22,169 nt of DNA, from IMG/VR virus record IMGVR_UViG_3300018080_000640, positions 1-22,169 of that record. One strand, 5' to 3'. The notes beneath the pieces were generated by a model. That model did not search any database. It was not told the DNA's origin and saw only the letters and a program-made list of their open reading frames with translations. Both the position numbers and the translations under genes were made by a program. Positions 2,533 to 18,003 of this stretch are shown here, one piece after another; within the stretch, counting starts at the first letter, position 1, and each line of letters starts with the position of its first letter. This DNA comes from a virus.

Positions 2533-2955
2533 ATGCCTATAACGAAAGAGGAGTTTATTGAGAAAGTTGGTCGGGAACCTACTGAAGATGAATTATCACG
2601 AGTTAATTGTGAGATTGTCGGAGTACCTGGGCATGACCATTGTGGGTGGTGTGAGGAGCACGATAAGCCTCGGATAGTATGTAAATGCATTGCCGGAGAT
2701 AATATCTACATGCATTCAAAATGCTGCGGCGCTCATTGGGAGCTTGTAAAGCATAACAATATAATCGGATTGTATTGCGCTAAGTGCTTTAAGTCGATAG
2801 GGGATGAGTTCAAAGTTATCATAGTTCCCAAGAAGCCGAAAGTGCCTCAAGCCCCGTCTCAGCACGCAGCGCCTCCGAAGGATATCAAGGTGGACGAACC
2901 TCCGCAGGACAAAAGTATTCCGGAGAAGGAATCGCAAGATGAAGCCGATTCTTGA
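2533..2955 (+). CDS. Cys/His-rich putative zinc-binding protein, 140 aa
   Basis: Start supported by AGGAG at 2519-2523. The N-terminal 25 residues (ITKEEFIEKVGREPTEDELSR) look like a short helical pair. Residues of about 33-90 hold many metal ligands: HDHCGWCEEHDK, IVCKCIAG, MHSKCCGAHW and YCAKCFK, i.e. at least three CxxC/CxC/HxxCC groups, enough for one or two zinc sites. The last 45 residues are Pro/Lys/Glu-rich and probably disordered (KKPKVPQAPSQHAAPPKD). No named family is recognised. It overlaps the NADAR gene by 17 bases, with the NADAR ribosome binding site inside its last codons, so the two are likely coupled. A zinc-finger adaptor or nucleic-acid-binding role would fit, but this is an inference. 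Confidence 0.65.
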   Translation: MPITKEEFIEKVGREPTEDELSRVNCEIVGVPGHDHCGWCEEHDKPRIVCKCIAGDNIYMHSKCCGAHWELVKHNNIIGLYCAKCFKSIGDEFKVIIVPKKPKVPQAPSQHAAPPKDIKVDEPPQDKSIPEKESQDEADS

Positions 2956-3490
2956 ATTCAAAGGAAAGTACTTTTTCCTGTCAAACTTTTACGAGATGGA
3001 GTTTGAGATGGACGGAGAGCTGCTTAAGTCCGGGGAACATGCATACCAGCGTGAGAAGACGTTGGACGCCGAGCGTCGCCAAGATATCGTAGACGCACCA
3101 TCACCAGGGTCCGCGAAAAAGCGTGGGAGGAGAGTTATTCTTCGTGATGACTGGGAATGCATAAAAATACCGGTAATGGCTAAGGTTTTGCATTCGAAAT
3201 TCAGTTATCCGGAAATGGAGCGCCGGCTGCTTTCTACCGGGGATTCGCTGCTTGTTGAGGGGAATACCTGGGGAGATGCTTTTTGGGGGTTTGACCTTAT
3301 TCGAGGGTTCGGTCAGAACATGTTAGGACGCCTTCTGATGCAGCTCCGTAAATCGAGACGTGATACTAGCCTTAAAGCGCGGTATGACCGCATAGCCGAT
3401 TCTGAGTGGTTTAAGGAGCATTATAGCGATGTTTCGCTCGGAGACGGGATACCTGTCGATTATGGATATAGTGATATTTTTGATGATTGA
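2939..3490 (+). CDS. NADAR-domain protein (YbiA-like)
   Basis: NADAR proteins cleave N-glycosidic bonds of NAD-derived or riboflavin-pathway compounds, and some remove ADP-ribose from guanine in DNA, acting as antitoxins to DarT-type toxins. The 183-aa protein shows the family pattern: FFLSNFYEMEF at residues 12-22, KSGEHAYQREK at 30-40 (the SxEHxYQ block with its conserved Glu33), the Arg/Gly stretch SAKKRGRRV, WECIKIPVMAKVLHSKF at 72-88, LLSTGDSLLVEGNTWGDAFWG at 97-117 and GFGQNMLGRLLMQLR at 123-137. The C-terminal ~45 residues go beyond the minimal domain. The family assignment is firm; the substrate (ADP-ribosyl-DNA, ADP-ribose or another glycoside) is not decided by sequence. It sits four genes after pncB, giving two NAD-linked genes in one operon. 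Confidence 0.85.
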   Translation: MKPILEFKGKYFFLSNFYEMEFEMDGELLKSGEHAYQREKTLDAERRQDIVDAPSPGSAKKRGRRVILRDDWECIKIPVMAKVLHSKFSYPEMERRLLSTGDSLLVEGNTWGDAFWGFDLIRGFGQNMLGRLLMQLRKSRRDTSLKARYDRIADSEWFKEHYSDVSLGDGIPVDYGYSDIFDD

Positions 3491-3506
3491 TGTTTCACGT
3501 GAAACA
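3491..3506. promoter_or_regulatory. Perfect parS-like palindrome
   Basis: TGTTTCACGTGAAACA is a perfect 16-bp palindrome. It fits exactly the chromosomal parS consensus known from Bacillus subtilis (TGTTNCACGTGAAACA), the site bound and loaded by ParB/Spo0J. It begins immediately after the NADAR stop codon and ends just before the ribosome binding site AGGAGG of the next gene. I saw no second copy in the window. A ParB-like gene follows about 630 bases downstream, but whether that protein or the host ParB binds the site is unknown. Confidence 0.8.
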
Positions 3507-3518
3507 TAGGAGGTTCAG

Positions 3519-4016
3519 ATGAACGAGAGAGATGTTATAAAAGAGACTCTTAAGCATATTTCAAGCGTATGCTGTAAGATTTTGAAGTTCTGTAATCGCA
3601 TGCATATGAGAGCGTATCATCATGATGATAGTAAGCTGGAAGAGCCGGAGTTTGAGACGTTTCTCAAATATACTCCAAAACTACGCGGTATGACGTATGA
3701 CGTCAATCCTGACAGTGAGTATCAGAAGTGCTTAAAGGAGATGAAACCAGCCCTGGACCATCATTATGCGAATAATGCGCACCATCCTGAGCACCATGAG
3801 AAGGGGATTGAGGACATGACCCTTCTGGATGTTACCGAGATGCTTTGCGACTGGTGGGCTGCGACAGAGCGCCATGCTGATGGGGATATAATGACGAGTA
3901 TCGAAAAGAATACCGAGCGTTTCGGATTATCTCCGCAGCTTGCTAAGATATTAGCGAATACGATTATTGAACTCAAGAATGACCTCGTTACGCATAAACC
4001 GGAAGACGTCGCGTAA
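3519..4016 (+). CDS. DUF5662-like, His-rich HD-type putative hydrolase
   Basis: Start supported by TAGGAGG at 3507-3513. The 165-aa protein is strikingly His/Asp-rich in ordered clusters: HMRAYHHDDSKLEEPEF near residues 29-45, DHHYANNAHHPEHHEKG near 86-102, MTLLDVTEMLCDWWAATERHADGDI near 106-130, and SIEKNTERFGL after it. This arrangement (HDxSK, NxHHPEH, EMxCDW) is what I recall of phage proteins grouped as DUF5662, thought to be related to metal-dependent HD phosphohydrolases; the catalytic activity is not known to me. It lies between the parS-like site and the ParB-like gene. The name is from memory of the pattern; the metal-ligand clusters are seen directly. Confidence 0.65.
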   Translation: MNERDVIKETLKHISSVCCKILKFCNRMHMRAYHHDDSKLEEPEFETFLKYTPKLRGMTYDVNPDSEYQKCLKEMKPALDHHYANNAHHPEHHEKGIEDMTLLDVTEMLCDWWAATERHADGDIMTSIEKNTERFGLSPQLAKILANTIIELKNDLVTHKPEDVA

Positions 4017-4037
4017 ATTTATGCGGTCGTTAAAATC

Positions 4038-4077
4038 GGTATGCATAAAATAGTATTTTTTATTTTTAGGTATGCAT
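4038..4077 (+). repeat. Direct repeat GGTATGCAT, two copies 31 bp apart
   Basis: GGTATGCAT occurs at 4038-4046 and at 4069-4077. The start-to-start distance of 31 bases is close to three helical turns, so both copies would face the same side of the DNA. Each contains the palindrome ATGCAT, and the spacer is almost pure A/T (4047-4068). Together with the inverted repeat and palindrome that follow, this makes the leader of the ParB-like gene a likely protein-binding region (autoregulatory operator or centromere-like site). Confidence 0.5.
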
Positions 4078-4084
4078 TCAATAT

Positions 4085-4100
4085 GTGACAAAAATGTCAC
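4085..4100. promoter_or_regulatory. Inverted repeat GTGACA-N4-TGTCAC, probable operator
   Basis: GTGACA at 4085-4090 and TGTCAC at 4095-4100 form perfect 6-bp arms around AAAA, the shape of a dimeric repressor or ParB-type operator. It lies 36 bases before the start codon of the ParB-like gene, where a bound protein could control its expression. Confidence 0.5.
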
Positions 4101-4109
4101 CAATGGCGG

Positions 4110-4123
4110 TGCAATCGATTGCA
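4110..4123. promoter_or_regulatory. 14-bp perfect palindrome TGCAATCGATTGCA
   Basis: A perfect palindrome directly in front of the AAAAGGAGG ribosome binding site (4123-4131) of the ParB-like gene. It can act as a dimer-binding site on DNA or fold as a short RNA hairpin next to the ribosome binding site. Confidence 0.5.
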
Positions 4124-4135
4124 AAAGGAGGCAAT

Positions 4136-4900
4136 ATGGCAGACGAAGTTAAGAATAACGTAGAAGATGTGGTCAATATCCCGATTGAGAAATTAATCAA
4201 AGCTGACTGGAATCCGCAAGTACAGTCAACTGAGACGTTTAACGAACTGGTAGCTGAGATTGAATCTGACGGATTTGATGAGCCTCTTGTCGTTATCAAG
4301 CATCCGGATAAAGAGGACCGGTTTCTGATTGTCGCCGGGAATCACCGGTACGACGCGGGGAAAGTCATCGGAATGACCGAATTACCCTGTATTATCAAGG
4401 ATTGGGACGAAGAAGAAGCCAAAATCAAAGCCGTACGTCGCAACATCATCCACGGAGACCTGGACGAAAGACGCTTCAGCACCCTTGTAAACAGCATTAA
4501 ACGCCGTGAGAAGATAACTGAGGACGAAGTCGCCAAGAAAATGGGATTCGCCAGTAAAGGTGAGTTTGATAAGCGGTATCGCAAGGAAGAGATAGAAAAG
4601 CGCGCAAAAGAGCGTAAGGAAGCTTATTCTCATGACGATATCCCCAAAGAACTACAGATGGTCGATAATGTTACGGTGGCAGTCAACGATATCTTCAGTA
4701 ATCATGAGGGAGATAGCATTGACCGGAGTTATCTGTTCTTCATGTACAAGAAGAAGATGCATCTCATCGTGACGTGCGATGACGCACTCGCGAAGACTGT
4801 ATCAAAAACCGTGGGACACATCAATGATAACTCTATGGACGCGGCTGAGTTTTTCAAGGCAGTGCTTGAAAAAGCAGTGAAGGAGTCGTCTAAAAAGTGA
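4136..4900 (+). CDS. ParB-like (ParB/sulfiredoxin-fold) protein
   Basis: The chosen ATG 4136 has a strong AAAAGGAGG five bases upstream; the frame stays open to an earlier GTG at 4085, but that would run through the palindromes of the leader. The protein is 254 aa. After an acidic N-terminus, residues 14-105 follow the ParB N-terminal domain: IPIEKLIKADWNPQ, FNELVAEIESDGFDEPLVVI, IVAGNHRYDAGKVIG (the GxxRxxA nucleotide-binding motif) and RRNIIHGDLDERRFSTLV, where the usual ENxxR box reads RNIIH, so the second CTP-contacting box is altered. A helical, very charged stretch follows (EDEVAKKMGFASKGEFDKRY), possibly a helix-turn-helix, then a C-terminal domain I do not recognise. Phage proteins of this class act in DNA segregation, transcription control or as nucleases. 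The nearby parS-like site makes a DNA-binding role worth testing. Confidence 0.8.
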   Translation: MADEVKNNVEDVVNIPIEKLIKADWNPQVQSTETFNELVAEIESDGFDEPLVVIKHPDKEDRFLIVAGNHRYDAGKVIGMTELPCIIKDWDEEEAKIKAVRRNIIHGDLDERRFSTLVNSIKRREKITEDEVAKKMGFASKGEFDKRYRKEEIEKRAKERKEAYSHDDIPKELQMVDNVTVAVNDIFSNHEGDSIDRSYLFFMYKKKMHLIVTCDDALAKTVSKTVGHINDNSMDAAEFFKAVLEKAVKESSKK

Positions 4901-4910
4901 CGGTTTCCGG

Positions 4911-4934
4911 AAAAATGAAAAAAATTTCATTTTT
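4911..4934. promoter_or_regulatory. AT-rich inverted repeat upstream of the promoter
   Basis: AAAAATGAAA (4911-4920), loop AAAA, TTTCATTTTT (4925-4934) is a perfect 10-bp inverted repeat ending three bases before the -35 box. It is preceded by the 10-bp palindrome TTTCCGGAAA (4904-4913). It has the T-run but no G/C stem of a normal intrinsic terminator. It may be a weak terminator of the ParB-like gene, an UP-type AT-rich promoter element or a repressor site. Confidence 0.5.
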
Positions 4935-4937
4935 TTC

Positions 4938-4966
4938 TTGACAAAATTTAGTCTATATGCTATACT
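4938..4966 (+). promoter_or_regulatory. Strong sigma70 promoter for the packaging/structural operon
   Basis: TTGACA (4938-4943), a spacer of exactly 17 bases, and TATACT (4961-4966), with TG at 4958-4959 giving an extended -10 (TGCTATACT). The -35 is perfect and the -10 has five of six consensus bases. Transcription should start near 4972-4974, at the foot of the leader hairpin, about 45 bases before the small terminase start. This is the only promoter of this quality I found in the window, and it points into the terminase-to-tail gene run. Confidence 0.85.
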
Positions 4967-4967
4967 G

Positions 4968-5004
4968 CTTGTGAATGTCCGGATATTGAAATCACATTCA
5001 CAGG
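4968..5004 (+). promoter_or_regulatory. Leader hairpin abutting the small-terminase ribosome binding site
   Basis: CTTGTGAATGT (4968-4978) pairs with ACATTCACAGG (4994-5004) around a 15-base loop, with one G-U pair; the eight-base core GTGAATGT/ACATTCAC is perfect. The stem begins at the predicted transcription start and its 3' arm touches the GGGAGG ribosome binding site (5003-5008) of the GTG-started small terminase gene. It could protect the 5' end of the mRNA, tune translation, or be a DNA operator at +1. Confidence 0.55.
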
Positions 5005-5017
5005 GAGGACGTCCGAC

Positions 5018-5569
5018 GTGGCAGAAAAAGACAAAGATGGTGCTTGGTTTGATGAAAAAGCCGACGCCGTAATGTCCCCCGAGCAGAAAAAAATTCAGTT
5101 ACGCAGAGAAACAGTCTTCGAATTGTATTATATGCGTAACATGTCACAAAGAGCAATCGCGAACGTCGTGACCTGCCACTACAACACAGTGGGTAGTGAT
5201 TTGAAATACATTCGCGAGCACATGGCTAAGAAGCATGGACATGGTGATGTTGACGTTCAAATTTTTGAAACGTGTGAACGAATGCAAGCAACCATGTCTG
5301 AACTATGGATGAATTATACTGCTGCTAAGAAGGATATTGATAAGCAGCGTTACTTAGAATTATTTCATAAAGTTCAGAAGGACCTCGCCGCATTCAAGTT
5401 GGATGTGGGGTTGATGCCACGAGCAGCTTCCCGCTCGAAGATTGAAGTTATAGCGAAGGAAGTCCAAGAGATGTCCGAGGCTGAACTGCTATCTCAAAGA
5501 GATAGATTGGTTCAACGTATAACGAGCGGGGAGTTTGACGAGGGTGCCGGACAAAACTTCAACAATTGA
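5018..5569 (+). CDS. terS: Terminase small subunit (putative)
   Basis: Recognises phage DNA and delivers it to the large terminase for packaging. Starts at GTG 5018 with GGGAGGA nine bases upstream. The 183-aa protein has an N-terminal helix-turn-helix, RETVFELYYMRNMSQRAIANVV then HYNTVGSDLKYIREH at about residues 30-68, which fits the DNA-binding domain of small terminases. A long helical middle follows (oligomerisation region: FETCERMQATMSELWMNYTAAKKDIDKQRYLELFHKVQKDL), then a C-terminal tail ending GEFDEGAGQNFNN. Its end overlaps the large terminase start. Identification rests mainly on position plus the helix-turn-helix and coiled-coil layout; the family itself is poorly conserved. Confidence 0.75.
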   Translation: MAEKDKDGAWFDEKADAVMSPEQKKIQLRRETVFELYYMRNMSQRAIANVVTCHYNTVGSDLKYIREHMAKKHGHGDVDVQIFETCERMQATMSELWMNYTAAKKDIDKQRYLELFHKVQKDLAAFKLDVGLMPRAASRSKIEVIAKEVQEMSEAELLSQRDRLVQRITSGEFDEGAGQNFNN

Positions 5570-8366
5570 GTCCCTTCATGGGTCAGCGGAAAAAAGTGAT
5601 GCGCTAGAAGCTCTGCGTGTCATGGAGAGCCGTCTTCTTGAAATAAAGAAAGTGCGCTCACCCCTGGAGCATGGATTTGCCGACTTGCTCGGCGAAGAAC
5701 TCGTTAACAAACGACACACCGAGTCAGATAAAGAACACGCACTTAGACAACAGCAAGCCATCTATGATTTTGTATCGTCAACACTTTATTTAGTCAAAGA
5801 TGGAAAACGCCAATACATTAAACTAGTCCCTGAAGCACGTCGTCTTATCGCTGACATTTTTTACGAACGTGTTAATAAAGCTATCCTCTGGAAATCTCGC
5901 GGCGGAGGAGGAAGCACATCAGCCGCAGTACTCATCTTTTTGATGATGGTTTACAAGTCAAAAGAGTTCACCAACCTTGCTGGTTCTGGTAGTCAGGCTC
6001 GTTCAATTTATGAAAAAGTTGTCGAGTTTTGTAGTTGTAACCCCCAGGTTTATCAGTATCTTATAGATGGTGACCCTTTGATATCCAGAACGCATTTTTA
6101 TAATGGAGCAAAGCTCCATTGTATCAATGCGACCGATAAGCAGGTCCGGAGTCGTCACGATTCCGGTCTTATTATTGATGAGGGGTGTTTACTCCCAGGT
6201 TCGAAAGTAATTACAGAGCGTGGGATTATTAACGTGGAAGATGTTGTTCCAGGAGATTGTGTAGTCAATCAAGATGGAATTATAACTTCTGTTAAGAATG
6301 TATGGAGCAAGGATTGGGATAATCGAGTAGTAAATATATCACTTAATGGATGGTCTACAGGATTAGAGTTGACTCATGACCACAGAGTAAAGATAATTCG
6401 AGGACTCGATAAAGGAAATCCAAAAAGAAAAGATTCTGTTAACGAGTCTAGTGCTGAGTGGGTTCACGCCGAAGATATAAGTGATAGAGATTATGTCCTC
6501 ATTCCAAAAATAAAGACGAGCGATATAGATGATTGTATACTCGCTGATACATACGACGGAGGGAAGTGGCTTGGATATTGGTTGGGGGACGGCTGGACCG
6601 GTAAACAGCGTTCAAGAGGAATTTATGTCGTATTCAATTCTAAAGATAAGCGTAATATAGATGAATATGTATCAATAAGTAAAGATTTGTTTGGGCGTGA
6701 GGTTTGCTTTGATAATTCGTCAGTTGAGAATAGAATTAATACTGATACTGCCTTATTTACTCATAAGGAATTAGCAGATTTTCTCGATACTACTTTCGGA
6801 ACAAAGTCTACAGAAAAAGGAATGCCTTTTGACTTTATAGCTGGGCAATCTAAAGATTTTGTCCGTGGAGTTATAAGCGGACTTATAGCTTCCGATGGAA
6901 CCGTATGGGAAGGGAAAGCCTCTTCAGGAGGAGTTTGCAAAAGAGCCTCGATACAGACCTCATCAGAAGCCCTGGCAGCTTCTATATTTACATGTCTGGC
7001 TAAACTTGGAGTAGCTGCTTCTTATAGAGAGCGTCCGGCGAAAATATCTAATATACGTGGTAAAGAGTACTGTACTAAAGAATCATGGGTTATTGATATA
7101 AATGGAAAGGCAATGAGCTTATTTACAGATACCGATGATTCTGATAGAAAGCAGAAGGCTTTTAATTCATGGGTGGAGATTGATAATTATATTGCTGTCC
7201 CTGTTAAAAGCGTAGAGTCTAGGCATTATTCCGGAGAAGTGTGGGATATAGAAGTCAAAGACGGTGAATCATTTATGATGATGAATGCTGTTGTGCATAA
7301 CTGTCAGGAAGACTTGAAAGCCGGCGAAGTGATGAAAACAGCTCTCCAGAACGCACTTACTCAGCCGGAACATCTTATCCTCATACTCAGTACGTTTCAT
7401 CATCCTGAAGGATTTTTCCAGGAGTATTGGGACGACGCAGAGACTCATGGATTTACTAGATATAAATGGTCTGTGTACGACACGATGGTCAAGTGTGAAC
7501 TTGATATCGACTGCGCCGACTGTTATTTGTCTGAGGTAGTGAATGAACACGATGAGCGCGGACGCGTAATCGGAACGACCGTAAAAGGATGCAACGGAAC
7601 TGCGCGGAAAGCAGAAGGTTACCAGTCGTTTGAAGCTGTATGTGATATTAAAAAAGTAAATGAGGGTTCGAGCGTTTATACAGTCGAGTTTGAATGCGAG
7701 CGCCCGAAATTTTACGGAAGCATTTATGACATTGAAGCTTTAGCGGAATCGGAGTGGGAAGATATTACATGGTATGAAGAGATTGAGAAATCAGTAGGAC
7801 TGGACTGGGGTTATGTAGGACAGACGGCAATATGCATGACTGTTCGAAGTGAGATAGGTGTCGGAGTTCTCGAGACAGCATGGTTTCATGAGCAAAAAAT
7901 CGGGGAGATTATCGGATACCTGAATAAACTTAGAGAAGAGTACGGTAACTTTGTAGTGTTTGCCGACTCATCGGACCAGTTCAGTAATCGCGAGCTGCAT
8001 GAAGAAGGGTTCAAAGTAATTCCTGTTGTTTTTAAGAAATGGAAAGAGTTCGGAATACAAAACGTATCGAAGTTCCTTACTACCGGACGTCTTCAATTTC
8101 TTAAAGACGGAGAAGGTAATGACCAGTTACTTTCTCAGTTGAGGAGATACCGTGCTGACGGAAACGGTAAGCCGATAAAAAAGGATGACCACGGACCTGA
8201 TGCTCTGATGTGTGCTATGCTTAACTGGAGATATTTTGAAATGTTTGCTGGCTCTCCGAATCTGAGGAAGATGCATCCGGAGCAGTACCAGGATAAGGAC
8301 GGCTCGATTGATGGAGAGCAGAAAAGAAGCAAAATCGACGCCAATCAGCAAGTAATCTTAATTTGA
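5544..8366 (+). CDS. terL: Terminase large subunit, interrupted by an intein
   Basis: Packaging motor: ATPase that pumps DNA into the head plus nuclease that cuts it. The chosen GTG 5544 has GGGGAG ten bases upstream; TTG 5535 (one base from that site) and ATG 5622 are alternatives. Numbering from the TTG, the ATPase has a deviant Walker A, KSRGGGGST at residues 120-128, with the lysine at the front as in lambda gpA, and Walker B GLIIDE at 211-216. One residue later an intein of 372 aa begins (Cys218). The C-extein resumes at CQEDLKAGE, with HLILILSTFHHPEG as the coupling motif. A Cys cluster follows (KCELDIDCADC, later GCNGTARK). The RNase H-like nuclease shows GLDWGY, VVFADSS and DDHGPDALM with three acidic ligands. 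Spliced length is about 570 aa, normal for the family. Confidence 0.92.
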   Translation: MPDKTSTIESLHGSAEKSDALEALRVMESRLLEIKKVRSPLEHGFADLLGEELVNKRHTESDKEHALRQQQAIYDFVSSTLYLVKDGKRQYIKLVPEARRLIADIFYERVNKAILWKSRGGGGSTSAAVLIFLMMVYKSKEFTNLAGSGSQARSIYEKVVEFCSCNPQVYQYLIDGDPLISRTHFYNGAKLHCINATDKQVRSRHDSGLIIDEGCLLPGSKVITERGIINVEDVVPGDCVVNQDGIITSVKNVWSKDWDNRVVNISLNGWSTGLELTHDHRVKIIRGLDKGNPKRKDSVNESSAEWVHAEDISDRDYVLIPKIKTSDIDDCILADTYDGGKWLGYWLGDGWTGKQRSRGIYVVFNSKDKRNIDEYVSISKDLFGREVCFDNSSVENRINTDTALFTHKELADFLDTTFGTKSTEKGMPFDFIAGQSKDFVRGVISGLIASDGTVWEGKASSGGVCKRASIQTSSEALAASIFTCLAKLGVAASYRERPAKISNIRGKEYCTKESWVIDINGKAMSLFTDTDDSDRKQKAFNSWVEIDNYIAVPVKSVESRHYSGEVWDIEVKDGESFMMMNAVVHNCQEDLKAGEVMKTALQNALTQPEHLILILSTFHHPEGFFQEYWDDAETHGFTRYKWSVYDTMVKCELDIDCADCYLSEVVNEHDERGRVIGTTVKGCNGTARKAEGYQSFEAVCDIKKVNEGSSVYTVEFECERPKFYGSIYDIEALAESEWEDITWYEEIEKSVGLDWGYVGQTAICMTVRSEIGVGVLETAWFHEQKIGEIIGYLNKLREEYGNFVVFADSSDQFSNRELHEEGFKVIPVVFKKWKEFGIQNVSKFLTTGRLQFLKDGEGNDQLLSQLRRYRADGNGKPIKKDDHGPDALMCAMLNWRYFEMFAGSPNLRKMHPEQYQDKDGSIDGEQKRSKIDANQQVILI
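6186..7301 (+). mobile_element. Intein with LAGLIDADG-type homing endonuclease motifs, in terL
   Basis: A 372-residue in-frame protein intron. Block A starts with CLLPGSKVITERG and continues EDVVPGDCVV; block B has LELTHDHRV (TxxH); endonuclease blocks are WLGYWLGDGW and GVISGLIASDGTV, the paired LAGLIDADG-like helices with acidic ends; block F is VWDIEVKDGESFMM and block G is AVVHN followed by the +1 nucleophile Cys of CQED. All residues needed for standard class 1 splicing (Cys1, block B Thr/His, His-Asn end, Cys+1) are visible, so it should be active. Removal joins GLIIDEG to CQEDLK, restoring the Walker B region. Base use is more A/T-rich than the host gene: two sampled 60-base lines (from 6661 and 6721) have 19 and 18 G/C, against 25 in an extein line (7921), consistent with separate origin. 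Confidence 0.93.
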
Positions 8367-16868: not shown

Positions 16869-17293
16869 TGAGTGACCCGTTAGTATCTTCGATTGATTAT
16901 GATGCTCTTCCGATGAGGATGGCATTAGCTAAAATCAAGATAGCACAGCTCCGTATGAGCCACACTCATGTTGATAGAGTTTACGGAGAAGCCGTAGGGA
17001 AAGAAGAGCGCAAGACTGTTACTGTATATGGTCAGAACAACTCCGCAGCGATTAAGCGGAAAACAGCGACTTCTACTGGTGATAGGATTAATACTGCCGG
17101 GCATCTTGTATTCAAGAAGAAGGACCTGGACGATGCCGGAGTAGTTTTAAGAACCGGTGATTATATTATAGAAATTGCCGGAGCAAAAGTAAATTTTGAA
17201 ATTGTCGAAGTTCGCCCTGAGAGTATTCTCGGGGGGAAACAGCGTTTAATATATGCAGACTACATGGCTGCAAAAGAAAGGTCGTCAGTATAA
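16868..17293 (+). CDS. Head-tail stopper (head closure) protein, putative
   Basis: A 141-aa protein placed between the connector and neck genes. After a helical N-terminus (MRMALAKIKIAQLRMSHTHVDRVYGEAVG) comes a beta-rich region with the pattern usual in stopper proteins: GHLVFKKKDLDDAGVVLRTGDYIIEIAGAKVNFEIVEVRPESILGGKQRLIYADYMA. In stopper proteins of SPP1/HK97-like phages this barrel closes the portal channel after packaging and gives the tail its docking surface. The name is based on that pattern and gene order. One-base overlaps with both neighbouring genes point to tight translational coupling. Confidence 0.55.
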   Translation: MSDPLVSSIDYDALPMRMALAKIKIAQLRMSHTHVDRVYGEAVGKEERKTVTVYGQNNSAAIKRKTATSTGDRINTAGHLVFKKKDLDDAGVVLRTGDYIIEIAGAKVNFEIVEVRPESILGGKQRLIYADYMAAKERSSV

Positions 17294-18003
17294 TGGCACT
17301 CGCAACACTCGGAAAAATCAAAGCTACTAAGGGAGCACGCAAAGCTCTTAGTATCAATTTCCGTTTGGGGCGGACTAGTCGTTATTATAAGAGTGATATC
17401 CGCCGTGCACAGAAGGCTTTGGTTAAGCTTCCTGATGTTTTGATGTTATCTTTTAAGAGAGCGACTGGACGTGCGACGTTTGTTAAAGGATTGAAGACAG
17501 TATTTGCAAATACTGCTCAAGCAGCAGCATCGCAAGTGCCTTTACGTGAAGCGACAATCCGTATACGTGAGTATATGAATAGTGAGTTAGGATATCCTAT
17601 GGCATCGTCTGATAAAGTGATGGTGCATAGCGGGCGTATGTTAACTGACGGGATAGATGTCGGAGCTACCGGAAAAGGGAAAAACTTCAGCTTGTGGGTC
17701 GGGTTTTCTGCGAGATTGCGGTCACCCGTTCCTGTAAAGACGCCGCATAGCGGATTATCCTATGCTGACGTAGCTCGTAGAATTGAATCGGGATTTGTTA
17801 TTCCGATTGATAGTACTGTGAAGGAGCTGTTTGCCAATGCTGGATTAAAGCTGAACACGAAGAAGCGTAAAGCTCTTTATGTTAAGCCGAGACCCTTCAT
17901 GGATAAAACTGCTCGAGTAACGATACAATATATTTATGATGTCGGTTTGAAAGAGACTGAAAAAGAAATTGATGGTGCTGCTGCGGAGGTTATACCGTTC
18001 TAA
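17293..18003 (+). CDS. Neck / tail-completion protein, putative (236 aa)
   Basis: Basic N-terminus (GKIKATKGARKALSINFRLGRTSRYYKSDIRRAQKAL), then a helix (VLMLSFKRATGRATFVKGLK), the central motif VHSGRMLTDGIDVGATGKGKNFSLWVGF, KTPHSGLSYADVARRIESGFVIPI and VKPRPFMDKT near the C-terminus. The combination of a GRMLxxG strand, IESGF and RPF(M/L) is common to HK97 gp10-like neck and tail-completion proteins. Its position, after the stopper and before the tail terminator candidate, agrees. No membrane or signal segment. Overlaps both flanking genes by one base. Confidence 0.55.
   Translation: MALATLGKIKATKGARKALSINFRLGRTSRYYKSDIRRAQKALVKLPDVLMLSFKRATGRATFVKGLKTVFANTAQAAASQVPLREATIRIREYMNSELGYPMASSDKVMVHSGRMLTDGIDVGATGKGKNFSLWVGFSARLRSPVPVKTPHSGLSYADVARRIESGFVIPIDSTVKELFANAGLKLNTKKRKALYVKPRPFMDKTARVTIQYIYDVGLKETEKEIDGAAAEVIPF

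Follow-up and report, generated by a model that had tools for sequence, protein, structure and literature searches.

The window, a stretch of 22,169 nucleotides of viral DNA from IMG/VR considered here at its full length, contains at positions 3491 to 3506 the 16-mer TGTTTCACGTGAAACA. As the preliminary description had claimed, this perfect palindrome is the exact 16-bp chromosomal parS consensus, the defining sequence of a chromosomal-type parS (TGTTTCACGTGAAACA or a close variant). In the available text of two sources, the same 16-mer serves as the parS consensus in biochemical work on ParB (PMC7383237) and is the optimal parS of Bacillus subtilis (PMC4333373), and 19 bases of the 20-mer GATGTTTCACGTGAAACATC of a ParB co-crystal (PMC7383237) agree with the window. 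The perfect dyad enclosing the consensus is 18 bp long (ATGTTTCACGTGAAACAT, 3490 to 3507, with no strand assigned). It lies, also as described before, at a 28-base gap between two genes, with the upstream stop codon ending at 3490 and the downstream ATG at 3519. The upstream gene (2939 to 3490, plus strand) encodes a NADAR domain protein (PF08719, 6.2e-21), and the dyad starts on the A of its TGA stop codon. Directly 3' of the dyad is AGGAGG (3508 to 3513, plus strand), read from the sequence as the Shine-Dalgarno motif of the downstream gene, which encodes a DUF5662 protein (3519 to 4016, plus strand; PF18907, 1.6e-35).

Three further plus-strand genes follow. P0001 is a ParB_N-domain protein (4136 to 4900; PF02195, 44.5 bits), whose start was placed at ATG 4136, with the upstream GTG 4085 as a possible start. 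It is adjoined by a putative small terminase subunit (5018 to 5569), with a role suggested by its position and a gene order kept in relatives, and then by a large terminase with an inserted LAGLIDADG intein (5535 to 8366, from profile matches). Long gaps are present on both sides of the ParB_N gene. The first (4017 to 4135) contains a 14-bp dyad at 4110 to 4123 and two copies of ATGCAT, and the second (4901 to 5017) a near-consensus promoter at 4938 to 4966 (TTGACA and TATACT with a 17-base spacer and TG before the second hexamer).

Under Markov models of orders 0 to 4, the exact 16-mer is expected 3.0e-6 to 6.7e-6 times per window, in agreement with the earlier statement that far less than one copy is expected per 22 kb, and 2.5e-5 to 5.6e-5 times per 183,648 bases, the length of the longer contig containing the window, where one was observed. 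Twelve perfect dyads of at least 12 bp occur in the window, that at parS included, and another 18-mer lies within a gene (17498 to 17515). Palindromes are therefore common in this DNA, and the improbable part is the match to parS rather than the dyad symmetry. The phage shows neither enrichment nor avoidance of the CACGTG core (24 seen, 25.6 expected). No second parS site was found in the window with up to three mismatches allowed. The presence of parS on a large phage is real and statistically secure.

The window is part of two longer IMG/VR contigs, G001 (101,531 bases) and G002 (183,648 bases), and shows one difference from each over 19,821 compared bases. Both contain exactly one parS copy and none other within three mismatches, so the extra copies outside the window that the preliminary description proposed to look for were not found. 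Each also encodes one ParB_N protein. An AAA_31-type ParA (PF13614) was found in neither contig (0/2), nor was a ParB above the TIGR00180 cut-off (0/2) or a Phage_integrase match. The completeness of the contigs is not given, and these absences consequently hold for G001 and G002 only. A phage-encoded ParABS, with a ParA ATPase near ParB and parS, was thus not seen (AAA_31 in 0/2 contigs), and the phage is one without its own ParA and canonical ParB as judged by AAA_31 and TIGR00180. The suggestion of a plasmid-like lysogen is not supported by the profile searches for Phage_integrase and AAA_31 ParA, neither of which gave a match.

The gene set (portal, capsid, sheath and intein-bearing terminase) corresponds to a large contractile-tail phage, with genes for RecA, a DnaB-type helicase and a CobT-like protein with a MoxR/CbbQ-type ATPase, and with 45 tRNA genes by ARAGORN, one of which has an undetermined anticodon. 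Profile scans of G002 covered 20 proteins and 68 others from 160 minus-strand ORFs of at least 100 amino acids, with 25 of the 31 families matched by the 68 proteins listed. G002 carries an RNA-repair and RNA-binding set, comprising RtcB, RlaP and a TROVE-type protein (at about 7.8 to 9.0, 160.9 to 161.8 and 2.0 to 3.5 kb), and a match to the anti-Pycsar family Apyc1. NAPRT (1011 to 2189) and NADAR are encoded in the window, and NAD synthase, isochorismatase-type and cytidylyltransferase-type proteins elsewhere on G002; together these genes possibly form a whole NAD+ salvage route on the phage. GATC is absent from the window and G002 (L143 to L151), compared with about 722 expected in about 185 kb, as are CAGCTG, CTGCAG, CCCGGG and GTCGAC. 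GATC is present in the distant relatives examined, and its absence here suggests that this phage strongly avoids restriction sites or has a modification trait. The Spo0A-box TGTCGAA occurs 40 times, compared with 22.6 expected under uniform bases, which is not a proper null model.

Six of the seven NAPRT homologues found by a bacterial scan belong to Desulfonema, Desulfoluna and another member of the Desulfobacteraceae (48 to 52%), and the seventh to a Clostridia MAG (41%). This is a weak hint of a host among the Desulfobacterota, given by a single gene that may have its own history. All seven bacterial genomes with these homologues have one or two sites of the TGTTYCACGTGRAACA form.

The preliminary description had offered, as an alternative to the ParB of the host, use of the site by the phage's own ParB-like protein. 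The P0001 gene lies 630 bases downstream of parS, and the N-terminal CTPase-type domain of P0001 matches the structures of Noc and Spo0J, both of which would favor P0001 as the reader of parS in a private partition or packaging system. However, the match to solved ParB proteins stops at about residue 139 to 140, and P0001 reads G137-F-A-S at the place of the ParB sequence Gly-Lys-Ser-Arg (judged by position, as the alignment ends there). The parS contacts of Caulobacter ParB include G170, K171, S172 and R173, and R173 is absolutely conserved among ParB orthologues, according to the available text of the source (PMC7383237). P0001 seems to lack parS-reading residues; PF02195 is over its cut-off, but the TIGR00180 score is 54.2 bits against a cut-off of 58.45, no AAA_31 ParA accompanies it on the contigs, and the combination of CTPase domain and parS-reading helix-turn-helix typical of a canonical ParB was not found. 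A structure model of P0001 (mean pLDDT of 45, with two sequences in the alignment) was too poor for use. Orthologues of P0001 in L276 (35%) and L375 (37.5%) both adjoin the terminase, as here, and neither record contains parS. In Agrobacterium phage JP1, a ParB-like gene precedes the terminase, and parS was not found at one mismatch or fewer. The GFAS sequence and the terminase-side orthologues in records lacking parS indicate that P0001 is better seen as linked to the terminase than as a reader. It was rejected as reader on the missing helix residues and on these orthologues, and a private system built on it is very unlikely.

Sites of this kind are not peculiar to the window. BLASTN of GenBank phages with a 30-nucleotide query of parS in its window context returned 370 of 50,697 records and 1,065 places, with a palindromic site counted once per strand. 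The best place had at least 99% identity in 214 of the 370 records, and the remainder include near matches. Two control palindromes with the same half-site dinucleotides as parS and the same flanks returned 39 and 9 records, with one place each. By host, the parS-matching records include Listeria (90), Microbacterium (66), Arthrobacter (34), Bacillus (26) and Gordonia (25); the Listeria rows consist of many fragments and near-identical phages, and the 370 records are therefore not 370 independent events. In IMG/VR, the exact 16-mer was found in at least 120 stretches, compared with 11 for a control palindrome with the same half-site dinucleotides and a CACGTG core.

The exact 16-mer was present at all seven GenBank places inspected. 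The phages concerned are Arthrobacter phage Atuin (194 kb), the T5-like Vibrio phage phi 3 (L360; record positions 2934 to 2949, within the left-hand terminal repeat), Lactobacillus phage Iacchus (Herelleviridae), Gordonia phage Harambe and Ruegeria phage vB_RpoS-V10 (L363; near the left end), as well as the microvirus Spiroplasma phage 4 (L365), with one exact consensus site, and the inovirus bajarodino virus 6 (L364), with six in 5,910 bases. In the Vibrio and Ruegeria phages, parS is thus placed at a terminal repeat or close to a genome end, in DNA that may be the first to enter the cell; a near match to parS was also listed in the DTR of phiPsa374 (H267). No parS was found in SPO1 or Cp-1, nor, at one mismatch or fewer, in any of seven named phages, six with DUF5662 and one with a ParB-like homologue. 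Canonical ParB was surveyed with TIGR00180 in 39 contigs of at least 25 kb from the at least 120 parS loci, in four control records and in both copies of this phage. None of the 39 parS-bearing viral records had a ParB over the cut-off, and five had weak matches; the four control-palindrome records had no match. L017 and L044 contain five sites each in 6 to 12 kb, and some parS-bearing IMG/VR contigs may be pieces of bacterial chromosomes. One viral contig of 116.7 kb (G035, which includes piece L087) has a tract of 65% GC, at 91.7 to 112.4 kb, with 24 parS-like sites, many of them between a stop codon and the Shine-Dalgarno motif of the next gene. Twenty-three of the 24 are asymmetric, all TGTTCCACGTGAAACA in a single orientation.

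A megablast of the window against phages and a contig profile search with the capsid alignment gave no match, and no relatives with between 51% and 100% capsid identity were found among the matches listed, although short peptide patterns can miss some. The relatives found are near-identical copies or have 36 to 51% capsid identity (n = 16, non-identical). The TGTTYCACGTGRAACA form, at one mismatch or fewer, is absent from all 16 of these distant capsid relatives. Nine of the 16 are records of <15 kb, and two have an identified ParB_N orthologue. Among the matches listed, 1 of 18 records has a site, a wider capsid relative (G070, 33%) with one TGTTCCACGTGAAACA. In relative G060, no NADAR or DUF5662 match lies within 4.2 kb on the upstream side of the ParB_N gene, which indicates that the NADAR-DUF5662 stretch is lineage-specific. 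A tie between DUF5662 and parS was ruled out, since relative G061 (piece L357) has a DUF5662 homologue (53%) and no parS, and the seven named phages also lack the site. At the depth of the relatives compared, the parS site is lineage-specific.

This distribution, together with the lineage-specific stretch indicated by G060, would fit a site that is an accident, or a remnant of host-chromosome DNA, of no use to the phage. However, the expected number of sites is far below one, and matched palindromes match about 10 to 40 times fewer phage records than parS does, and chance or relic origin is accordingly extremely improbable.

Little can be drawn from the intergenic position of the site. Of 146 parS sites in IMG/VR loci among the matches listed, 67 lie between genes, 75 in coding sequence and 4 at an edge. 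Non-coding sequence averages 9.9% of the loci, and 10 of 11 control-palindrome sites are intergenic. Since controls are, if anything, more intergenic than parS, position between genes was dropped as evidence. A fixed rule requiring a place just before a Shine-Dalgarno motif and start codon was satisfied by 19 of 146 parS sites and 0 of 11 control sites, with a background of 3.1% for random positions (737 of 24,000) and 5.0% for random positions between genes (109 of 2,170); 9 of the 12 sites present in L087 satisfy it on the coding strand. Part of this excess may be phylogenetic.

The excess, the place of the site just upstream of a gene start and the common orientation of the 23 asymmetric copies on G035 would fit an operator before the DUF5662 gene, recognized by some other palindrome-reading regulator of phage or host. 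No promoter-like site was found at the palindrome of the window, however, the DUF5662 homologue of G061 lacks the site, three of the four phi29 sites are inside genes and the exact match to parS would have to be a coincidence, so that an operator is improbable. The same leader position could accommodate an RNA hairpin that sets translation or decay of the mRNA, as the 16-mer folds as RNA at -3.9 kcal/mol and adjoins the Shine-Dalgarno motif. That fold is only modestly better than those of shuffled sequences (z of -1.4 to -1.9), and a hairpin needs no such fixed sequence. Moreover, TGTTCCACGTGAAACA, the mRNA sense on G035, does not fold (0 kcal/mol), unlike its reverse complement, although it is a good DNA parS. 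A hairpin function on G035 is therefore unlikely, and in the window the hairpin, a weak candidate on its z values, has scarcely any probability. Placement between stop codon and Shine-Dalgarno motif is most simply explained as use of free non-coding space in a packed genome and is not proof of a role in mRNA.

The closest known parallel is phi29, for which Meijer et al. in 2005 reportedly described parS sites and Spo0J-dependent entrapment in the spore. Four TGTTTCACGTGGAACA sites are present in phi29 (10445, 15903, 17243 and 18760), compared with an average of 0.12 matches at three mismatches or fewer for 60 shuffled palindromes. The site at 17243 is directly 3' of the gene 16 stop codon, and the other three are within genes. 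Among the matches listed, 25 of 227 IMG/VR parS loci have relatives of phi29 proteins, and in 16 of these 25 the stretch examined contains between two and five exact sites. Two to six exact sites were present in 11 of 12 phi29-like contigs examined, a set picked for having sites. According to the available text of a later paper, Spo0A suspends the lytic cycle of phi29, which enables Spo0J to entrap the phage chromosome in the spore (PMC9437464, citing Meijer et al. 2005). The window and phi29 are alike in carrying a chromosomal-type parS on a phage, in the case of phi29 with host Spo0J/ParB as the reported partner and with no gene annotated as ParA or ParB, and in having a site that abuts a stop codon. 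They differ in that phi29, a protein-primed podophage of 19 kb, infects a spore former and has four TGTTTCACGTGGAACA sites, three of them inside genes, whereas a single perfect site is found here on a 184-kb contig of a contractile-tail phage, the host of which may not form spores. The exact 16-mer also occurs in phages of Listeria, Lactobacillus, Vibrio and Microbacterium, bacteria that do not form endospores. These phages and the hint of a host in the Desulfobacterota are the reasons for which spore capture was set aside as the whole story.

Other known systems are less similar. Chromosomal ParABS (Spo0J/ParB and parS) shares the identical cis site, and the one copy here agrees with the one or two found in each of the seven bacterial genomes, but the site is on a virus, on a phage contig without an AAA_31 parA or a parB over the TIGR00180 cut-off. 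Partition systems of phage-plasmids, P1-type ParABS and others, have their own ParA and ParB and private centromeres; they likewise couple phage DNA to a partition protein, whereas the consensus here is that of the host, and neither ParA (AAA_31) nor ParB (TIGR00180) was found. Short motifs just upstream of phage translation starts are also known from actinophages, namely, the SAS/ESAS of cluster K and the inverted repeats GATCAACCNNGGTTGATC of Microbacterium cluster EG, but in the available text of the sources the printed motifs are multicopy and are not parS (PMC3203893, PMC7302621).

The parS of the window is probably a landing site for host ParB that ties the phage genome to host segregation and aids its positioning or retention; the binding, the spreading and the benefit (retention, placement or titration) are what we infer. 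Host ParB would be the natural reader because P0001 is linked to the terminase and none of the 39 parS-bearing viral records has a ParB over the TIGR00180 cut-off. Host-ParB recruitment is the part of the preliminary description that is best supported, by the consensus, the excess in phages, phi29 and the absence from the contigs of an AAA_31 ParA or a ParB over the TIGR00180 cut-off, while its proposals of a phage ParB and a plasmid-like lysogen were not sustained. A large tailed phage with no recognizable partition system would in this way carry a genuine chromosomal-type parS, to which host ParB would bind during infection. Bound ParB would load as a CTP-dependent sliding clamp, spread over neighboring phage DNA and tie the genome to the host segregation machinery, and this tie might help the phage genome to be positioned and retained, whether in a daughter cell or during a stalled (pseudolysogenic) infection. 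The precedent for such a mechanism would be host Spo0J acting on phi29 during sporulation. Set against a host-ParB landing site are the single copy here, compared with the two to six of the phi29-like contigs, the absence of parS from the 16 distant relatives (9 of them short records) and its absence from the seven named DUF5662 and ParB-like phages, SPO1 and Cp-1.

A site that binds host ParB could instead be a decoy, with replicated phage genomes drawing ParB and SMC loading away from the parS sites of the host origin and so disturbing segregation or freeing resources. Each of the seven bacterial genomes has just one or two TGTTYCACGTGRAACA-form sites, which even one site per phage genome would outnumber after replication; some phages have many sites, such as the 5.9-kb inovirus and G035. 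Many sites would, however, be expected in a large phage that acted in this way, compared with the one in 184 kb here, and the work on phi29 points to capture rather than titration. A decoy is unlikely.

A host-ParB landing site is of a kind known from phi29; its breadth over microviruses, an inovirus, T5-like phages, Herelleviridae and actinophages appears not to be described in the open-licence literature searched. Carriage of a host-type parS could be a general, convergent strategy of phages beyond phi29, though we put this forward tentatively and consider it somewhat more doubtful than not. Unrelated groups, mostly without canonical ParB, would have ParB clamps, and possibly SMC, loaded on their DNA soon after entry, whether or not the host forms spores. 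The groups concerned are single-stranded DNA microviruses, an inovirus, T5-like phages, Herelleviridae, phi29-like phages, actinobacterial phages and the 184-kb contractile-tail phage described here, which would be the minimal form, with one perfect site in a 28-base gap. Because parS matches occur in laboratory-grown phages (phi29-like, Microbacterium, Arthrobacter and Gordonia phages), the idea is directly testable. If host ParB does load through a borrowed parS, chromosome segregation would be a recurring target of phages, and it could see to their retention, placement or distribution with no need for phage genes. parS would then serve to identify phages persisting in cells that are dividing or dormant, and such phages would provide a natural way to ask what the loading of ParB and SMC does to DNA that is not chromosomal.
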